The notes under the pieces were generated by a model, which saw only the letters and a list, made by a program, of their open reading frames with translations, made no database searches and had not been told where the DNA came from. A program made the translations under genes and the position numbers. This document shows positions 14,723 through 29,129 of a stretch of 36,777 nt of DNA, one piece after another; position 1 is the stretch's first letter, and each line of letters opens with the position of its first letter. Source of the DNA: a virus. The stretch is taken from IMG/VR virus record IMGVR_UViG_3300036933_000006, positions 1 to 36,777 of that record. One strand, given 5' to 3'.

Positions 14723-14750
14723 AAGGGCCGGGGTTTGACGCCCGGCCCTT
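14723..14750 (-). terminator. Intrinsic terminator-like hairpin after the major capsid gene
   Basis: A 10-base-pair stem (AAGGGCCGGG with CCCGGCCCTT) encloses an eight-base loop, and on the minus strand CTCTTT follows. It lies seven bases after the capsid stop codon and would partly terminate or stabilise the capsid mRNA. Confidence 0.7.
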
Positions 14751-14756
14751 TCAGAC

Positions 14757-16286
14757 TTAGGAAACGCGGGCTCCGACGATGGCCCCCTGGATGTAGGGGT
14801 GCTGGCAACGGAGCGTCTCGGAGAACTGAGTCACGAACGGGTAGATCCTGCTCGTGGCCGCGACCGGGAAGTAACTGTACGGCCGCATGACCGACAGCTT
14901 GAAGGCTTCCGCCTCACGCGCAGTTGCGTAAGGAATCCGATCAGCGATGAACATGAAGTTTCCGTCCGGGATATCGGGATGACCCCAGATGGGAATCGTC
15001 GCCGGCTGTCCGGGGATGCTCGAGGCGAACTTGTTCAGGTAGTCGCCGACGTAGAACGCGCCGGTGAATGCCGACTGGTCGTTCAGCTCTTGGCGGTAGA
15101 CGTATTGCCCACCAGCGATCAAGAGGTTCGAGATGTTGGCCTTGCCGAGCGGGCTCGTGAGGATGCGAGTCGGAGAGGCTTTCCAGGGGGAGTAGCAGTT
15201 GTACAGAATCTGGTCGAGCTCGGCGATGCCTGCACCCTGGGCGGTGAGGGACATCCCATTCATGTCAATCACGTTGGGAGCGGTGGCCCCAGTGACTGCA
15301 TTGGAGCTGAAGTCCACACCGTAGACGTTCTGCTTGGTGCACCACGCCCACGCGCCATTGAATGTGAGGGGGTTGGCGGTACCGTTGGACGACGGCGGAA
15401 CCTTGGCAACAGTTGCCGTCGCGGCGTTGTAGACCACGCGCACTGCGGTCATGCCGATGAAGCAGCCGCCCACAGAGGACGTGACCGCGGCACCGTCGGA
15501 GGCGTAGAACATCTGCGACAGCGGGACCAACTTCGCGGCCCCAGCGTTTACACCGGCGTAGAGCTTGTAGCCCATGGCGCCCGGAACGTATGGCCAGGAG
15601 ATGAGGTCGTACGCGGTCGAGCCAGAGGAGGCGTTGGTCATGTCGACCGCGAAGAGGTCCGACTCTCCGACGCACACGTTGCTGTCCGGCGTGGCCACGA
15701 GGCCCTGGCTGTTTGCAAGGATGCCTTGCAGAGTCAGAGCGGTTACCCAGTAGTGGGTCGGCGCGGTGTAGGTGCCAGACCCACCCTTGACGGCGGTACC
15801 GGAGGCAACAGCCGCGATGCCGTCGTAGTCGCCGCCCAGGCACATGAGCTCATCCAGCCTTTGGATGGAGCCGATGTTGGAGGTGGACTGAACGGACAGG
15901 GCGTCGTCGTACCCGAGGGCTTTATCGACGTCTTCCTGCGCGACCGAACCGTAGATCGCGGCGGTCGCAAAGTTGGCCTTGAAGGGGGTCGCTTCCAGAA
16001 CGTTCTCCGGGCCGACAGCACCCTTGGCGACACCGAACGCGGTGCTGAAGTCCAATCCAAAGCCAACCTGAACCTTCCAGGTGTCGTAGTCCGCACCAAC
16101 ATCGGGTTTGGTGGTCGGCAGCGAGGCGCGGAACGGGGCAACCCAAGGCTGCAGGAGGACCGCGGGGCTGACGAGGTTATAGCCCCCGTAGCCGGTGAGC
16201 GATTTCTGCATGGAGGCCCGGTCGAGCAGCCCGAGCTCAGTCCTCAGCTCGTTCAGCTGGTCAGGGGTGAAGTTCATGTTATCCAT
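14757..16286 (-). CDS. Major capsid protein, HK97-like fold
   Basis: The 509-residue protein has the expected features of a large HK97-fold major capsid protein. There is a helical N-terminal region (FTPDQLNELRTELGLLDRASMQKSLTG), then VSPAVLLQPWVAPFRASLPT, and a C-terminal domain with LTSPLGKANISNLLIAGG, IPIWGHPDIPDGNFMFIADR and PYATAREAEAFKLSVMRPYSYFP. The middle (about residues 180-310, with APTHYWVTALTL and a Val/Thr-rich stretch) is longer than usual and probably an insertion domain on the capsid surface. It follows the protease-scaffold gene. The ATG at 16286 has AAGGAA upstream; a second ATG three codons in is possible. The protease encoded next to it would be expected to trim the N terminus. 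Confidence 0.85.
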   Translation of the reverse strand: MDNMNFTPDQLNELRTELGLLDRASMQKSLTGYGGYNLVSPAVLLQPWVAPFRASLPTTKPDVGADYDTWKVQVGFGLDFSTAFGVAKGAVGPENVLEATPFKANFATAAIYGSVAQEDVDKALGYDDALSVQSTSNIGSIQRLDELMCLGGDYDGIAAVASGTAVKGGSGTYTAPTHYWVTALTLQGILANSQGLVATPDSNVCVGESDLFAVDMTNASSGSTAYDLISWPYVPGAMGYKLYAGVNAGAAKLVPLSQMFYASDGAAVTSSVGGCFIGMTAVRVVYNAATATVAKVPPSSNGTANPLTFNGAWAWCTKQNVYGVDFSSNAVTGATAPNVIDMNGMSLTAQGAGIAELDQILYNCYSPWKASPTRILTSPLGKANISNLLIAGGQYVYRQELNDQSAFTGAFYVGDYLNKFASSIPGQPATIPIWGHPDIPDGNFMFIADRIPYATAREAEAFKLSVMRPYSYFPVAATSRIYPFVTQFSETLRCQHPYIQGAIVGARVS

Positions 16287-18183: not shown

Positions 18184-18207
18184 AAAAAAGGCGCCCAGGA
18201 GGACGCC
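18184..18207 (-). terminator. Intrinsic terminator before the protease-scaffold gene
   Basis: On the minus strand GGCGTCC-TCCT-GGGCGCC (7 pairs including one G-T) is followed by six T residues. This is a textbook rho-independent terminator, between the gene ending at 18240 and the protease start at 18163. It implies either a promoter of its own for the capsid genes or read-through/antitermination. Confidence 0.8.
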
Positions 18208-19736: not shown

Positions 19737-22040
19737 TCAATCTCCGAAACCGATTGGATCTTCGTTCATGGTCGTTTCGCCGGTTGGCAATACTGAAGTC
19801 TCGGGGTCCTCGGTAATCAGGATGCCACCAGCTTCGATCAGCGTATTCAGCCGTGCTTGCGCGAGCTCGCATGCGGTGGGTCCGACTAAGTGCTCGATCG
19901 AACCCCAAAGCTGTATGTCGTGCTGCAGGTGCTTGAGATTCGCGATCAAGCCTGGAGGCAACGCCTGGTTTTCCATCGCCTCGACGAATGGCGAGAAGAC
20001 GCCTTGGTTGGTGGTCGGGAACGTCAAACCGTTGTCCCACATGATCGGCCGCTGCGGATCGTATGGGTGGGTGCCCCAGTTATTCACATGGCGGTCGCCC
20101 TGTCCTGAGATGTAATCCAGGATCGCGGCGCGCTGCAACCAGTAGAGCGAATACTGATCCGTACCCCGGGGGGGCTTGGAATCGCGGACGTAGTAAAGGA
20201 CCGCGCCGGGATCTCCATTCAGCTGGGTGCAGTAGGCCACCGGAACGAGGTAGAAGCCGAGCGCCCGGTCAAGCAGGTACGCTGCCTCTTCGCGGAGGAA
20301 TTGGAAGCCGCCGATTCTTGAGATCAGCTTCGGGTTCTCGCCAGAAAGCGGTTTCCAGACCCCGGGCCAGCTGGGGAGTTGATGCCCTTCGGCGTCGGGC
20401 TCGGGGACGATTGCCACCACGAACACCTCATTGGCATGTCCGCCGGTGGGCCACTCAAAATCAATAGGTGCCACGATCGGCGCGCCGTAGTATTCGTCAT
20501 CGTCGGGAGTGCAGCCAGTGACTTTGCGAAGTGTGGCGTTGGCCAGTTTGGCGAGGTCCTCCTGCCGGTACCCGGACCCCAGAACAAACGTTGTCCGCTC
20601 GGGGTGTTCTTTGCCGGTGGTGAGCAGATTCTTACTGACTGAATCGTCGGAGACGGTAGTCTCGGGGTTTTGGTCTATGGCACCATCGGCGCCCGACTGG
20701 CCTTCGAGGGTTGACACATTGCCCACCCAGGTCACTTGCCCGCCGCGGATAACCATGTAGACGTTGCCGCCTTCAACCGGCGGATGCCCTGAGGCGATCC
20801 GGAACTCGTTAAGGGTGATGCCCGCATTCTCGAACGCCGACAAAGCCGCGGCTTGCGCTGCGGTCGGGTCAGCATCAGCCGCGGGAAGCGAAAGCTTGAA
20901 TGTGCGGCCGCCCAGGTCGAGCTTCTGCAGGAAGCTGTTACACATGGCCTCGACGTGATCGGCGATCGGCCCGAGCCCCATGCGAAACAAGGCTTGTGCC
21001 ATTGCGTCCTCGAAACCCGATCCGCCCAGACCATGCCCGGGCACCTTAGCGAGCTCTGATACCGGCAAGCCCGAGGTGAAGGCCAGGTTGTTGAACGCCT
21101 GCCCATAGGCCACTGCCGGCCAGTCTGGGCTCTTCGTCTCGGTCCACTTGCCGCCGAATGGCATCAGCTTCATTCGGGACCGGGCCTGAGCGCCGCTCAT
21201 CAGCTCGTCGTAGCGCTTCTCCCACTCCGTGATCTGGTCGGGCGATAGCTCGGCATCCGGGGTGAAGATGGACTCGGGGAGGTTGCCCTCGCGATAGTGC
21301 GCCAACGAGAAGGCTTTGATGTTCGCGAGCAGCATCACATCGGACCACGCCTGCTCGACGGGCGGATTGCCGTATGGAGCATTCTCTCGGATATTCTGGG
21401 GCATGTATTCGACCTGGTCGGCAGTCCACCAACCAAACGGCATGCCCTTGATGACTTGGCAGTATGCCGGATTCTCGCCTCGAGGAGTCCGACCCTGCAC
21501 GTCGACGCAGCAAAAGAGCGTCGAGCCGTCCATCACCACAAGCGCCTGATCGTTCAGGTCGTGGTACAAGGCGGGCGCATCGTAGATGTACATGTTCCGC
21601 ATGAGGCGCCCCAGCCACGTCTGCCAGTGGAGCTCGCGGTCTGGCGTTTGAGTGAACCAGTAGAGCGGACCCTTCGGGCCCTCTACGTTTCCGTCTGCGT
21701 CCACGATGTGTGGCGTGTAGATCGTCATCTCGCGAGTGAGCACCCGGTTAATCATCTGGGCTTCGCTCACGAGGTAGAACGTGTCTCGAAGCATCTCAAA
21801 CGACGTGAGGCCGTAGCCGATGCGTGCGTTAACGGAGGCGACGTTGGCCGCCACCGGATAGTCGATCGTCCGGGGCATATTCTCTTCGTAGGGCTGCGGT
21901 GTCGGCCGTATCGGGCTGCCGGGCCCGACCGTGGCCATAGTCCACTCTTGAGGAGTGGGCTGCTCCACGAGCGTCGGCGGATGATAGACCGCGCCTGAGA
22001 TTGCCTTGCCGAAAGAGCTTAGCCCCGAGCGAATACCCAT
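19737..22040 (-). CDS. Portal protein fused to a PI3/4-kinase-like (SCO1664-type) kinase domain
   Basis: The 767-residue protein has two parts in one uninterrupted frame. Residues about 55-430 are a portal (SPP1/HK97 type): DTFYLVSEAQMINRVL near the start, ANIKAFSLAHYREGNLPES, AYGQAFNNLAFTSGLPVSEL, and LNEFRIASGHPPVEGG at its end. After an Asp/Gly-rich linker (445-475), residues about 540-745 match the SCO1664-type PI3/4-kinase-like family. Landmarks are Lys563 in VWKPLSGE, Glu584/585 in FLREEAAYLLDRALG, the catalytic loop GQGDRHVNNW with Asp649 and Asn653/654, and metal-binding Asp669 in IMWDNGLTFP. All are intact, so phosphotransfer activity is plausible; the substrate is unknown. The start codon directly follows the terminase stop. 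Usual portals are 400-550 residues. The linker around 475-540 is unassigned. Confidence 0.88.
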   Translation of the reverse strand: MGIRSGLSSFGKAISGAVYHPPTLVEQPTPQEWTMATVGPGSPIRPTPQPYEENMPRTIDYPVAANVASVNARIGYGLTSFEMLRDTFYLVSEAQMINRVLTREMTIYTPHIVDADGNVEGPKGPLYWFTQTPDRELHWQTWLGRLMRNMYIYDAPALYHDLNDQALVVMDGSTLFCCVDVQGRTPRGENPAYCQVIKGMPFGWWTADQVEYMPQNIRENAPYGNPPVEQAWSDVMLLANIKAFSLAHYREGNLPESIFTPDAELSPDQITEWEKRYDELMSGAQARSRMKLMPFGGKWTETKSPDWPAVAYGQAFNNLAFTSGLPVSELAKVPGHGLGGSGFEDAMAQALFRMGLGPIADHVEAMCNSFLQKLDLGGRTFKLSLPAADADPTAAQAAALSAFENAGITLNEFRIASGHPPVEGGNVYMVIRGGQVTWVGNVSTLEGQSGADGAIDQNPETTVSDDSVSKNLLTTGKEHPERTTFVLGSGYRQEDLAKLANATLRKVTGCTPDDDEYYGAPIVAPIDFEWPTGGHANEVFVVAIVPEPDAEGHQLPSWPGVWKPLSGENPKLISRIGGFQFLREEAAYLLDRALGFYLVPVAYCTQLNGDPGAVLYYVRDSKPPRGTDQYSLYWLQRAAILDYISGQGDRHVNNWGTHPYDPQRPIMWDNGLTFPTTNQGVFSPFVEAMENQALPPGLIANLKHLQHDIQLWGSIEHLVGPTACELAQARLNTLIEAGGILITEDPETSVLPTGETTMNEDPIGFGD

Positions 22041-23414
22041 CTAAAATCCCCCTAGAGTGCGTGCGTTCATCTCGGCTACTTCCTCCGCCCACGTCTGCTT
22101 GCGATCCGTGACGGCGGGCTCGGACTCCGCCCGGTATTCCGCCCGCAGCATCTCGAGGCGGTCATAGTCGGCGGCGGTCCATCGGCTGCCGAGGTCAAGA
22201 CCCATCCCCAGATACCTGAGCGAGTCGAGTCTGTGAAAGGTTTCTTTGTCGGCGATCTGCTCGGTGGTCTGTCCGGATTCGTCCATCTTGCGGTGGTAGG
22301 TGCCGAGCTCATCCCTTAGTCCGGAGAGTGTGTCGAACACATGTAGCCGGCGAGTCTTAAACAGGCCCACCACTCGGTCGATGCCTATCTCCACATCGGG
22401 GATCTTCGGAGCGAGTAGGTGGACGCCCTCCTGGGACCAGTCGCGACGCCACTGCGTCTCCGATTGCGCCCCGCCCCAGCCCGTGACGAAGTTCGTTCCC
22501 TCGACGCGATTCCTCACGCGCCGAGCATGTTCCTTGGTCGTGAGCCCGCCTTCGAGCGACTCGTGATAGGCGTAGTAAATGTTCCTGGCTGGATCCAGTG
22601 CCAGGTAGAGGATCGCCGTATGTGCGCCACCAAAGTCCACGCCGATGTAGCGTGGCCACTCGGGCGGGATCGAAAATGGGTGGACCAGATGCCCGCCCTC
22701 TTCGACGTAGTTGTCGGTGTAATCCTCATAGATGAGGCCTGATGGCCGGACAAACTGGCCTTCGTAGAACATGGCGTATTTCCACGCCGGCAGAGTCGCT
22801 TTCATGCGCTCCATCTCTTCGGCGGGGAATGCAGGGTTAGCGGTCGAGGCGAATTGGATTACTGCATAGTCGGGATCGCCGGCCCGCCAGCGGTCGTAGA
22901 CTTGGCTCTTCAGCCAGCCCAGGTTGTAAGGCGTGGTCGTGATGAGCGCCCGGCCTTGGTGAAGGCTCAGACGTCTCTGGATAGCTTCCCAGGCTCCCAG
23001 GCGGAAGGTTGACTGTCCGGCCTCGTCAAGCCACGCCGCCTTTGCCGTCGCGCTCTCCAGGGATTCGGCGTTGGTTGCCGAGCCGAAGATGACGCGCGAT
23101 CCGTCCTTCATGTTGAAACACTTGGAGGTCTCGCGCCATTCGCCCAGGTGAAGGGTATGCTCGAAGAGCGATCGGAACTCGGGGAGCATCTTGAGGTTCA
23201 GCAAGGGAAACGAGGCCGTGACGGCGAGATAATCGCCGGGGCCGCGCTTCTGGATTTCCCTCAGCAGCCAGATCGGACCAAAGGCCGTCTTGCCACTTTG
23301 GCTGCCGGCGAGCATGAGGACAAACCGCCGATCGCAGCGGTAGACCTGCGACTGCCCGGCATGGAAATTGAAATGGCATTGGTTCTTCTCGTCAATCCAC
23401 TTCAGTTCCGGCAC
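22041..23414 (-). CDS. terL: Terminase large subunit
   Basis: The 457-residue protein is the DNA packaging motor. The N-terminal ATPase has the Walker A motif AGSQSGKT (36-43), Walker B with catalytic glutamate AAWLDEAG (126-133) and the coupling motif TTTP (158-161). The C-terminal RNase H-like nuclease starts with Asp260 in YIGVDFGGAHTA and continues with GWGGAQSE and further acidic residues, including the DSLRYLGMGL region. It pumps DNA into the procapsid through the portal and cuts it. The gene overlaps the small terminase gene by 23 bases and abuts the portal gene, the normal order. Confidence 0.93.
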   Translation of the reverse strand: MPELKWIDEKNQCHFNFHAGQSQVYRCDRRFVLMLAGSQSGKTAFGPIWLLREIQKRGPGDYLAVTASFPLLNLKMLPEFRSLFEHTLHLGEWRETSKCFNMKDGSRVIFGSATNAESLESATAKAAWLDEAGQSTFRLGAWEAIQRRLSLHQGRALITTTPYNLGWLKSQVYDRWRAGDPDYAVIQFASTANPAFPAEEMERMKATLPAWKYAMFYEGQFVRPSGLIYEDYTDNYVEEGGHLVHPFSIPPEWPRYIGVDFGGAHTAILYLALDPARNIYYAYHESLEGGLTTKEHARRVRNRVEGTNFVTGWGGAQSETQWRRDWSQEGVHLLAPKIPDVEIGIDRVVGLFKTRRLHVFDTLSGLRDELGTYHRKMDESGQTTEQIADKETFHRLDSLRYLGMGLDLGSRWTAADYDRLEMLRAEYRAESEPAVTDRKQTWAEEVAEMNARTLGGF

Positions 23415-23760
23415 TTGGAGCCTCCGTCATGTGGATGAGGATGCCGAGCGGTTGGTCTGGGGCGTTTGCCAGCTCGTGCCGGCTAGTGTCGCCGTAGACT
23501 TCCCGGCGGTGGCATTTGAGAAGGAAGATCAGCAAGGTATCGGAGCTCTCCCGCGCTCGCTTCCACGCAGTGGCGACCAATGTGTCGACCGCCTCGTCCT
23601 CGGCCTCTTTCCACGCCGCAGCGAACCTCGCGTTCCTGTCCCGGGTCCGGTATGCATGCTGCCGGCTGATGCCGGCGGCTTGGCAGGAGGCGCGAACGTT
23701 GGCGGAGTTTCGGAAGGCTTCGAGGAAGGTGGGCTTCCAGTCCGGACGTTTAGTGCTCAT
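23392..23760 (-). CDS. terS: Terminase small subunit-like protein
   Basis: This 122-residue protein has an N-terminal helix-turn-helix of the phBC6A51/transposase-like type (FLEAFRNSANVRASCQAAGISRQHAYRTRDRNARFAAAW). A helical middle follows (EAEDEAVDTLVATAWKRARE, DTLLIFLLKCHRREVYG), suited to ring assembly, with a short flexible tail. It should recognise the packaging start on phage DNA and hand it to the large subunit. It directly precedes and overlaps the large subunit gene. The 220-base repeat-rich segment just upstream is a good candidate for its binding site. GAGG lies six bases before the ATG. Confidence 0.82.
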   Translation of the reverse strand: MSTKRPDWKPTFLEAFRNSANVRASCQAAGISRQHAYRTRDRNARFAAAWKEAEDEAVDTLVATAWKRARESSDTLLIFLLKCHRREVYGDTSRHELANAPDQPLGILIHMTEAPSAGTEVD

Positions 23761-25907: not shown

Positions 25908-26015
25908 TCACGCCTCCTTCGTCCGCCGCATGATCCTCACTGTGTCCCTGAGCTCGCATATCCTCATGCTCCAAGGGTTAGCAAATTCCCTGCTGCAGAG
26001 CGGGCAAATGTGCAT
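25908..26015 (-). CDS. 35-residue zinc-knuckle microprotein, first gene after the late promoter
   Basis: The frame MHICPLCSREFANPWSMRIC and on to RRTKEA is 35 residues long. It has a CxxC pair at positions 4-7, a further cysteine at 20, and a basic, arginine-rich end. The ATG has a very good GGGAGG site and lies just downstream of the terminator at 26063-26089, making it the first gene of the late transcript if read-through occurs. Its TGA is one base from the GTG start of the next gene. Its size and basic charge would suit a small nucleic-acid-binding or regulatory protein. Function unknown. Confidence 0.55.
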   Translation of the reverse strand: MHICPLCSREFANPWSMRICELRDTVRIMRRTKEA

Positions 26016-26062
26016 GCGTCAACCTCCCAATAAGGGTTAGGTTTTGCGGCAAGAAGGGGAAT

Positions 26063-26089
26063 AAAAAAAGCCCGGCAGATAGCCAGGCT
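26063..26089 (-). terminator. Strong intrinsic terminator at the early/late junction
   Basis: On the minus strand AGCCTGGC-TATCT-GCCGGGCT (8 pairs, one G-T) is followed by a T-rich run TTTTTTATT. It lies about 40 bases downstream of the expected start of the promoter at 26134-26162. It can end the early operon and also block the short leader of the late promoter, as tR' does in lambda. Confidence 0.85.
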
Positions 26090-26133
26090 GAATGGATTTA
26101 GGGCGCGCGACGCCCAACCAATATCCGAGGTCG

Positions 26134-26162
26134 ATTATGACACTGTGCGCCTACAGCGTCAA
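26134..26162 (-). promoter_or_regulatory. Predicted late promoter
   Basis: On the minus strand TTGACG (26162-26157, five of six consensus) is separated by exactly 17 bases from CATAAT (26139-26134, five of six). Transcription would start near 26127 and meet a strong terminator after roughly 40 bases. The -35 box overlaps the final codons and stop of the 149-residue gene. The whole late block downstream has no better promoter that I can see. Confidence 0.7.
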
Positions 26163-26608
26163 GACGTACTCTTCTGGCGTCTTTTCACGGCAAAAAAAAG
26201 AGCTGTGATTGCGATCTCCAGGGCATCATCAAAGAACTTGCGACCGTACCGGCCACGCGGCATCTGCAAGCGCTCGACAACCTTGATCCAACCCTTGTGC
26301 TCTTCCCATAGGCCTTTGCGGTAATACCAGTGAAGCAGATTCCAGGCCCAAGGATTCACCGCGCCGATATAGACCATGCCTTGATTGATTGCTCGGTTCT
26401 GGCACATAATCCGATACTGGCGATCGCACTTGTCCAGTTCGATGAAATCGCCGTCGCCTGTAGCCGTTCCTGTCGGCAAGTCGGCCATGCTGGATTCGAA
26501 CGCCTTGTACTCCTCTAGCGCGATTCTCAGAGCGTCGGAGCTCGTGAACCTCCAGTTCCAAGCTGCCGTCTGCCTCGATCCAAGCGCCGGATGATGCAAG
26601 TGGCTCAT
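26159..26608 (-). CDS. Candidate late-transcription regulator (Q-, RinA- or ArpU-like by position)
   Basis: The 149-residue product is soluble, helical and basic at the C terminus. Notable stretches are SDALRIALEEYKAFESSM, ELDKCDRQYRIMCQNRAINQ, NPWAWNLLHWYYRKGLWEEH and RYGRKFFDDALEIAITALFFAVKRR. The last reads like a helix-turn-helix region of sigma-like regulators (ArpU/RinA class), and the size also suits lambdoid Q antiterminators. It is the last early gene, and its stop codon overlaps the -35 box of the late promoter, exactly the Q-pR' arrangement. No decisive motif is visible, so the function rests on position and size. AGGGA precedes the ATG. Confidence 0.6.
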   Translation of the reverse strand: MSHLHHPALGSRQTAAWNWRFTSSDALRIALEEYKAFESSMADLPTGTATGDGDFIELDKCDRQYRIMCQNRAINQGMVYIGAVNPWAWNLLHWYYRKGLWEEHKGWIKVVERLQMPRGRYGRKFFDDALEIAITALFFAVKRRQKSTS

Positions 26609-26755: not shown

Positions 26756-28372
26756 TTACTCATGTGCGCCGCCTTGCAACACGCTCCATCCCTGCGAGGT
26801 AGCTCTATCCATCGCCTCGTCCACGATCCTGAACGTCTGCCGCATCCCATCGAACTTGAACGTCACTGGTTTGCCTGGGTTGCTATGCCGCGATTTCGCC
26901 ACGATAAACCGGCCCTCGCTTTCCCCGTCCACGTCGATTGCGTCGTCTCGAAATACGATGATGATTTGGTCCGCGTCTGCCTCGAGCGCTCCCGATGCCC
27001 TCAGATCGAACATGGTTGGCGCCGTGATCTTTTGCTTGTCGCCTGGCCTCGAGAGCTGGGACAGCACCATGACCGGCACCTCCCGTTTGCGAGCCATAGA
27101 CTTGAGCCCTCTCGAGAGCTTGGTAGTGCCTTCCTGCGCGTTGTCGCGTCCCATGTCCATAAGCCCGATGTAGTCAACGATCACAAGGTCCGGCTTGTAC
27201 TCTTCGATTCGCGACTCGAGCCCGGACAGTGTGCGGTCCTTCTGCAAGATGATGTTTTCGTAGTATGGGAAGTTGGCCGCCAGATCAAAGGCGTCTTTGT
27301 CCACTTCCGTCAGCCTGCCGCGATAGAGCCGGTCAGTGTCCAGGCCCCAATGCTGAATCATGCGCAGCGCCACTTCCTCCTCGTTCATCTCGAGCGTATC
27401 GAACAGGACGACCTTGTTACGCTTCGCCACGTCATAGGCCGTATTCAGACAAAACGCCGTCTTGCCGCTGCCTGGGTATCCGGCCACGATGCAAAGCCAG
27501 CCGGGCCGCATTCCTCGAGTGCGTCGGTTCAACGGCTCCCAGGGAAAGTCAACGCTTGGCGGCATGGGTTCGGTCTTGAATCTGGCCACGTCGCGTATGG
27601 CATCCAAGAGCGTTGGCCTCTTTGGATTCTGGGAAGACTTGACAAGCCTCTTCAGTTCATCGGGCGAGCCGCCGTGCCTTAGCCAATCGCTCACATCGCC
27701 CTTCTCGGGCAGTCCAGGCAGTTCTATCGTCTTAACCGATGCAACGCGCCCCGTGAGGGCTTCTGTGACCGTCTGCGCGTGCTTGCGTCCTGGCTCGTCA
27801 TTGTCGGGCAGGATAACGACGTGCGCGCCCTCGAGAACTTTGGTATATCCATCGGTCCACTTGCCCGCGCCTCCCGCGTTGGTGGTCGCTGCAAATCCAA
27901 GTTGCTCGAGACTGTGAACGTCCTTTTCACCCTCGACAAGGAACACACGCCGGCCAGCCGCTACGGCCTCGAGAACTTTGGGCAAGTGGTAGAGCACTCG
28001 CTCAGTGTCTCCTAGCCTCCACTCCCAGCCGCCGTTGCCGTCCGGCTTGCGTTGCCTGAAGTCCTTCGGCAGATATCGCACCACTTGGAATACAAGCTTG
28101 CTGTCCGGGCCAACATAGTCATACGTTGCCGCGATCTCTCGAGACTTCGGCTCTGTCTTTTCGGGCATAAGGTCCGCAAGGGTCAGGCCAAGCGCCTCCA
28201 CAATGTGCTCCGTGTCGCACCCGGCGTGGCACTTGAGCAGAATCCGCTCATCGGTTCCGGTTGCAATGGAAAGGCTTTGGTGCCGATCCTCGTGTCCAGG
28301 GCAGCAGGCAAGGTAGCCTGACGATTGACGCTTGACGTTGCGGAACTTGGCAAGAAACTCGTCAATCTCCAT
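26756..28372 (-). CDS. Bifunctional primase-helicase (T7 gp4-like)
   Basis: The 538-residue protein combines the three modules of phage primase-helicases. A CHC2-like zinc ribbon has Cys24-x2-His27 and Cys48-x3-Cys52 (ACCPGHED; KCHAGC). A TOPRIM domain has Glu147 (VFLVEGEKDV) and Asp190/Asp192 (VVILPDNDEPG). A RecA-like DnaB-type helicase has Walker A AGYPGSGKT (297-305) and Walker B DLVIVDYIG (Asp400), followed by VPVMVLSQLSR and GALEADADQIIIVFR. It should make primers and unwind the fork during phage replication. The start MEIDEFLAKF at 28372 overlaps the previous gene by 11 bases; an in-frame ATG 11 codons earlier lies inside that gene. It works with the organizer-like protein encoded just before it. 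Confidence 0.93.
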   Translation of the reverse strand: MEIDEFLAKFRNVKRQSSGYLACCPGHEDRHQSLSIATGTDERILLKCHAGCDTEHIVEALGLTLADLMPEKTEPKSREIAATYDYVGPDSKLVFQVVRYLPKDFRQRKPDGNGGWEWRLGDTERVLYHLPKVLEAVAAGRRVFLVEGEKDVHSLEQLGFAATTNAGGAGKWTDGYTKVLEGAHVVILPDNDEPGRKHAQTVTEALTGRVASVKTIELPGLPEKGDVSDWLRHGGSPDELKRLVKSSQNPKRPTLLDAIRDVARFKTEPMPPSVDFPWEPLNRRTRGMRPGWLCIVAGYPGSGKTAFCLNTAYDVAKRNKVVLFDTLEMNEEEVALRMIQHWGLDTDRLYRGRLTEVDKDAFDLAANFPYYENIILQKDRTLSGLESRIEEYKPDLVIVDYIGLMDMGRDNAQEGTTKLSRGLKSMARKREVPVMVLSQLSRPGDKQKITAPTMFDLRASGALEADADQIIIVFRDDAIDVDGESEGRFIVAKSRHSNPGKPVTFKFDGMRQTFRIVDEAMDRATSQGWSVLQGGAHE

Positions 28373-29129
28373 TGTCGCCACCCCAGATGCGATCAATCTC
28401 ATCAAGCACGGAAGGCGGTTTGGTCATAAACTTCTCCGCGTGTTCTGCGTCTCGGAAGATAAGCGTCAGGTTGTTGAACTGCTTACCACCGGTTTGCGGA
28501 TCCCTGCCCATGTGCCAGTCTGAGTTGGCGTATCCGTCTATCGCCGCGCAGCATCCCTCAAACCCGTATGTCTTGAGCGCCCACTTGACGGCCCTCTTGC
28601 GCTTGTCATCAAAGTGGGTGGCCGAGTTCTTATTCATCACTTTCTTCCAGTGATAGAACACGTCATCGGGACTTACAGGCAACGTATCAGTATCAGTATC
28701 AGTATCAGTATCAGTATCAGTATCAGTATCAGTATCAACAGTCAGGGCGGCTCGCCCGGTGCTAGCACGGTGCTTGTCTGGTGCTAGCACGGTGCTAGCA
28801 CGGTGCTCGCCCGGTGCTGGCAGGGTGCTTGGTGCCTCTTTTGCGTGCGGACTCTGGTGTTTCTCGAAGTTCTTCACCTGAATGTACCGTGCTTCACCGA
28901 CCATATACCGGACAATGAACCCGTGATTGAGTAGTTCTTCCAACAGCGTTTCAACGTCTACCGAATCGCAGGGGAAGAGCTTGATCTTGAATTGCTTTGG
29001 CTTGTCGGTCATGCGGCCGGCGCGATCGGCCATACACCATAGGCCGATGAAGAGCAAACGAGCCCACGGCGTCAATTCCACGATATCTTCGTCGGTGAAG
29101 AAGTCCGGTTTTATGCCCCTTGCCCTCAC
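28362..29129 (-). CDS. Replisome organizer-like protein with repeat-built linker
   Basis: The 255-residue product starts with a GTG overlapping the previous stop (GTGA), giving V/MRARGIKPDFFTDEDIVELTPWARLLF. This is the familiar N-terminal winged-helix start of phage replication initiators/organizers. Residues about 60-95 complete this domain (VETLLEELLNHGFIVRYMVGEARYIQVKNFEKHQ). The linker holds two copies of an 11-residue unit (APGEHRASTVL, APDKHRASTGR) and nine Asp-Thr pairs. The C-terminal domain (FYHWKKVMNKNSATHFDDKRKRAVKWALKTYGFEG) is DnaD- or helicase-loader-like. It should bind the origin and recruit the primase-helicase encoded next. No obvious origin repeats are seen apart from the linker repeats themselves. 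Confidence 0.78.
   Translation of the reverse strand: MRARGIKPDFFTDEDIVELTPWARLLFIGLWCMADRAGRMTDKPKQFKIKLFPCDSVDVETLLEELLNHGFIVRYMVGEARYIQVKNFEKHQSPHAKEAPSTLPAPGEHRASTVLAPDKHRASTGRAALTVDTDTDTDTDTDTDTDTDTLPVSPDDVFYHWKKVMNKNSATHFDDKRKRAVKWALKTYGFEGCCAAIDGYANSDWHMGRDPQTGGKQFNNLTLIFRDAEHAEKFMTKPPSVLDEIDRIWGGDNGD
28684..28737 (+). repeat. Nine tandem copies of hexamer GTATCA
   Basis: Nine perfect GTATCA units encode nine Asp-Thr pairs on the minus strand in the linker of the organizer-like protein. Since the unit is six bases, copy-number changes keep the frame and would only change linker length. Such perfect repeats are prone to slippage. Confidence 0.95.
28758..28829 (+). repeat. 11-base tandem repeat, seven units
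   Basis: GGTGCT recurs at 28758, 28769, 28780, 28791, 28802, 28813 and 28824, exactly every 11 bases, with unit consensus GGTGCTAGCAC. Three units make 33 bases, which explains the 11-residue protein repeat. Because 11 is not a multiple of three, gain or loss of one unit would shift the reading frame of the organizer-like gene. Confidence 0.9.

Follow-up and report, generated by a model that had tools for sequence, protein, structure and literature searches.

A promoter with a spacer dyad and an immediate terminator beside a putative late regulator gene: a possible Q-like antitermination switch in a viral record

Layout of the locus

The DNA analysed is one complete IMG/VR virus record (IMGVR_UViG_3300036933_000006) of 36777 bases with a G+C content of 60%, referred to below as the window. 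The locus of interest lies on its minus strand, where an open reading frame (ORF) of 149 residues, named q149, is followed by a promoter and, shortly after it, by an intrinsic terminator (Table 1). Every large gene of the record is carried on this strand. Read leftwards, the order is PD-(D/E)XK-type protein, SNF2-like helicase, methylase, replication initiator, primase-helicase (26756-28405), q149 and the promoter-terminator segment, followed by small ORFs (some of them HNH-like), the terminase small subunit (TerS), the terminase large subunit (TerL), portal, a MuF-like protein, protease, a capsid-like ORF (by position), tail genes and endolysin. The SNF2 and tail gene labels were assigned by eye only.

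q149 looks coding because its codon log-odds per codon are positive only in its own frame (+0.164; the other two sense frames give -0.29 each, the antisense frames -0.11, -0.00 and -0.38); its G+C content at third codon positions is 0.67. The ORFs just 3' of the terminator are small (35, 78, 87, 227 and 95 residues) and the start of TerS lies about 2.3 kb further on. The original prediction, made from the DNA alone, had all genes from packaging to lysis following the terminator, which holds for their strand and direction, but the small ORFs come first.

Table 1. Coordinates of the features discussed in the text (window positions).
Feature	Position	Strand	Remarks
q149, proposed late regulator	26159..26608	-	149-residue basic protein (isoelectric point 9.4); ATG start
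-35 element TTGACG	26157..26162	-	covers q149 stop codon (26159-26161)
24-bp dyad	26138..26161	-	TGACGCTGT-N6-ACAGTGTCA, one mismatch; across -35/-10 spacer; possible loading site
Extended -10 element TG-T-CATAAT	26134..26142	-	
Predicted transcription start	26127	-	inferred, 7 nt past -10
5' hairpin of leader RNA	26094..26126	-	
Sigma-pause-like hexamer GATATT	26120..26125	-	-10-like; initially transcribed region
G-10 Y-1 G+1 elemental-pause match	26108..26118	-	3' end C at 26109; 11 nt after GATATT
tR'-like intrinsic terminator	stem 26089-26069, with U tract to 26061	-	8 pairs, then TTTTTTATTC
35-residue ORF	25908..26015	-	first after terminator; GGGAGG ribosome site; CPLC zinc-knuckle-like
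TerS	23392..23760	-	phrog_4044, E=1.1e-15
TerL	22041..23414	-	profile matches
Strong terminator ahead of protease gene	18190..18207	-	
Strong terminator right after ORF 14757-16286	14725..14748	-	ORF capsid-like by position

Promoter, terminator and leader

The promoter (26162-26134) has the elements TTGACG and CATAAT with a 17-nt spacer, gives 10/12 matches and carries TG ahead of the -10. As had been predicted, it comes directly after the 149-residue gene with its -35 element over the stop codon. No other site in the window has at least 10/12 matches plus TG; among 400 Markov sequences, 21 contained one or more sites of this quality. The terminator stem begins at about +39, i.e. about 38 nt beyond the predicted start, and folds at -15.5 kcal/mol (z -3.75), which agrees with the strong terminator expected about 40 bases past the start.

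A promoter of this kind with a strict terminator 10-100 nt further on was found in none of the 400 Markov sequences and twice in 79 real viral loci (1,133,427 bases). These two pairs, in loci L003 and L070, were rejected as parallels, neither lying at an early/late junction. Counts from a looser scan were at chance, with 4 promoter-like sites against 5.3 and 15 terminator-like sites against 15.3, and for this reason the claim is based on the quality and arrangement of the sites. The regulatory segment is real and unusual.

The 59-nt leader folds as two tandem hairpins (z -3.21), and none of 200 shuffles was equally stable. Its 5' hairpin alone gives z -1.83, the terminator hairpin supplying much of the stability, and the leader RNA matched no Rfam family.

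Spacer dyad and pause signature

The dyad spans the region where the Q- and AlpA-binding elements (QBE and ABE) lie, and is a possible factor-binding element. It occurs as a single copy within the window, where the density of arm-9 dyad centres is 0.001 per base. In the initially transcribed region the pause signature (-10-like hexamer plus G-10 Y-1 G+1) is present at 4/6 as judged from sequence only, lambda pR' scoring 3/6 in the same test; as background, 0.76% of window positions reach 3/6 and 0.18% reach 4/6. At 1329 promoter-like sites (at least 9/12) in 158 other loci, the pause signature was found 16 times, an arm-9 spacer dyad 10 times and both together never, and the promoter at 26162-26134 carries both.

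Terminators within the late operon

Besides the tR'-like terminator, the window holds just two strict terminators (18207-18190 and 14748-14725), both on the minus strand with late genes on either side. Three strict terminators per sequence were reached by 1 of 400 Markov sequences. Except at 26134-26162, the scans gave no promoter-like site of at least 9/12 on the minus strand, and hence none after the internal terminators. The two internal terminators may set gene dosage.

Family searches with q149

The original prediction had seen no clear Q signature in the protein, and the searches agree. At E≤1 q149 gave no match to the Q21 family PF06530 (nor at E≤10 in the record search), nor any Pfam match to PF03589 or PF06323, the lambda Q and Q82 families in the excerpted text of PMC7171158. 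Single-sequence hhalign against lambda Q gave a probability of 0.2%. For RinA (TIGR01636) there was no NCBIfam match at E≤10, for ArpU (TIGR01637) no NCBIfam match, and for both none in a further search. Thus the remote homology search against Q, RinA and ArpU that had been suggested as a check yielded no family match, and q149 appears to belong to no known family. A kinship of its C-terminal half (LLHWYYRKG...) with the tails of RinA and QuuD, proposed by eye, was tried with shuffles (p about 0.05 for RinA/ArpU, none for Q21-type) and is not claimed.

The missing similarity lowers the claim of membership and not that of function, because known antiterminators also share no sequence similarity: in the excerpts available, AlpA is without sequence similarity to 21Q (PMC9371919) and GafZ without similarity to Q or AlpA (PMC11150451).

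Comparison with known antitermination systems

The arrangement resembles lambda Q with pR'-tR' in that a regulator gene adjoins a strong promoter with a sigma-pause signature and a terminator ahead of the late genes; it differs in the unrelated protein and in the spacer dyad. Lambda tR' also lies much further downstream than the terminator found here.

The systems that follow are described from excerpts of the cited articles. Published Q and AlpA switches combine a factor-binding element in the -35/-10 spacer, a pause element and a downstream intrinsic terminator (PMC6606751, PMC9371919, PMC7969949), the -10-like pause element being required at both kinds of promoter (PMC9371919, PMC6606751). 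Phage 21 Q (PF06530) is likewise a small protein with an element between -35 and -10 and a -10-like pause sequence, whereas its sites are two direct 6-bp repeats (PMC6606751) and no sequence similarity to q149 was detected. AlpA of Pseudomonas aeruginosa binds between -10 and -35, with intrinsic terminators beginning at +54 and +26 and more terminators in the operon (PMC7969949), but it is a regulator of cell lysis, away from a phage early/late junction. In the Caulobacter gene transfer agent, GafZ is a non-Q antiterminator whose putative site falls between -10 and -35 (PMC11150451), although it works jointly with GafY and IHF. In the excerpts of the literature that was searched, the architecture was not found in a phage of this kind.

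Interpretation

The promoter, dyad, pause signature, terminators and gene order are read directly from the DNA. Because the sequence shows candidates for each published part of a Q/AlpA switch, a Q-like processive antitermination switch with a regulator of an unrecognised family is taken as the most likely explanation, which we hold with about even confidence. On this model the promoter would fire unaided and its transcripts would end 40-60 nt further on, at the terminator. Expression of the early operon would then supply q149, which would bind the dyad during the pause of RNA polymerase close to the promoter, join the enzyme and carry it past all three terminators into the packaging, head, tail and lysis genes. 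The role of q149 as the factor, its binding to the dyad and the q149-dependent read-through we infer only from position and DNA signals. We put forward more tentatively, and with some doubt, that q149 is the founding member of a processive antiterminator family not recognised before, using palindromic spacer loading at a sigma pause, in a phage not close to the lambdoids. That Q21, lambda Q, AlpA and GafZ have a mechanism in common but no common sequence suggests that such factors lie hidden among the orphan genes of many phages. If the proposal is true, a spacer element, pause signature and immediate terminator could locate them where protein homology fails.

A number of results weigh against this reading. 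No homologue of q149 was found in Pfam, PHROGs or NCBIfam. By tblastn against phages and plasmids there was no relative apart from one partial plasmid match at E 0.8, and none when the C-terminal half was used alone. GTDB genomes, PDB sequences and four genomes held no relative, no PDB antiterminator chain was matched, and ORFs of the fetched loci gave best E values of 1.7 and 3, own copies aside. The single-sequence AlphaFold model is all-helical but too poor for use (predicted local distance difference test, pLDDT, 58), also for judging the C-terminal helix-turn-helix and RNA-exit-channel ring expected of a Q/AlpA-type factor; compared with BFVD, PDB and VIA it gave nothing beyond noise, a result that carries no weight. 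The sole relative in IMG/VR is one near-identical contig (1 difference in 6557 bases), and three scans with other window proteins found no other. That contig is the same phage and so gives no conservation evidence, and none comes from the nearest relative of the helicase (L003, 57% identity), since the region after its helicase holds a helix-turn-helix (HTH) protein instead of a q149 counterpart.

Profile comparisons of q149 point the same way. With our own 6-row Q21-type profile, q149 was equalled by 2034 of 3000 shuffles, and with the RinA and ArpU profiles by 148 and 139 of 3000 (uncorrected). This comparison and the terminator survey described below used 5 of 8 PF06530 loci, 7 of 30 ArpU loci and 27 of 30 RinA loci (minus L367, L392 and L393), plus QuuD and phi11 RinA. 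L367 was dropped for two in-frame stops, while L329 and L330 (PF06530) and L339 and L340 (ArpU) were included although under the curated cut-off. Relatives of QuuD and RinA from IMG/VR were near-identical copies and were not used. As for the DNA signals, the known 21Q sites are direct repeats, unlike the dyad, and the pause distance, first set at 10, was extended to 10-11 once this site had been seen. At the rate found in real viral DNA, 1.7 strong terminators are expected against the three observed (P 0.24), which is no excess.

The remaining adverse results come from other late-control loci. A strict terminator within 300 nt past the regulator stop was found in 16 of 35 RinA/ArpU loci (11/28 RinA, 5/7 ArpU), and the survey raises the question of why strong terminators so often follow these genes. 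A consensus-like promoter preceded that terminator in 2 of the 35. The PF06530 loci had a terminator in 1/6 and a promoter-terminator pair in 0/6. In phi11 (L083, 6340-6527) the order is rinA, promoter-like site, strong terminator, terS, and phi11 RinA is described as an activator. Should the phi11 late promoter precede this terminator, transcripts that depend on RinA would likewise have to read through it. The pR'-tR' logic of the original prediction is upheld as to layout, which is real and is strengthened by the dyad, the pause signature and the internal terminators, but layout alone cannot separate antitermination from activation because RinA/ArpU loci also carry terminators after the regulator.

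This bears on the main rival, in which q149 is a late activator of the Ltr, RinA or ArpU kind that raises initiation here or nearby, the terminator closing the early operon and being leaky or bypassed. In the excerpted text of PMC13123087, Ltr-type activators agree with q149 in size, charge and place, and RinA, ArpU and Ltr loci share with this one the size and basic charge of the protein, the gene position and the frequent terminator after the gene, to which the weak profile lean to RinA/ArpU may be added. The promoter, however, is near consensus and on paper needs no activator, and neither RinA nor ArpU was matched. The Ltr hallmark, several upstream direct repeats as defined in the excerpts of PMC13123087, was not found upstream of the promoter or in the gene 3' end; the stretch 26130-26420 has two-copy 9-11-mers only. 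We regard activation as unlikely, while keeping it closest in view among the rivals.

It is improbable, in our estimate, that the segment is an independent short RNA gene of about 60 nt, while the late genes depend on early-operon read-through or on a promoter that escaped recognition. The two tandem hairpins of the leader and their stability relative to shuffles speak for it, but a good part of that stability comes from the terminator hairpin, no Rfam family was matched and the scans saw no other late promoter. Short terminated RNAs also arise at Q-type promoters, as lambda 6S RNA does, which tells against this explanation as well. Alternatively, a repressor (of host or prophage, or q149 itself) might use the dyad as its operator and silence the late promoter, with partial termination only and no antitermination. 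A dyad spanning the spacer is in a usual location for a repressor site and this one is single copy in the window, but such an operator would leave the adjacent downstream terminator and the two internal terminators unexplained, and we consider it very improbable.

Other features of the record

The 35-residue ORF matches zf-C2HC_2 at E 0.0036, which is under the cut-off. An exact 9-bp direct repeat, AAGGGTTAG, lies on either side of its start (25973-25981 and 26032-26040, spacing 59 nt). Relatives of the endolysin were found in actinobacterial and Alicyclobacillus phages, and those of the helicase in many phyla. In the portal ORF (767 residues), about 290 C-terminal residues extend past the portal models (19737-20636, minus strand) and include a GDRHVNNWG...WDNG motif, which we take to be reminiscent of lipid- or HipA-like kinases. 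For this extension Pfam gave no more than a weak match to PI3_PI4_kinase (E 0.18), comparison with the PDB gave nothing useful and the single-sequence model was useless (pLDDT 32). On the plus strand, a promoter-like site at 46-74 (TTGACA-17-TACACT, 10/12) lies ahead of the small ORFs 113-373 and 374-574, the second of which has a weak HTH_17 match.
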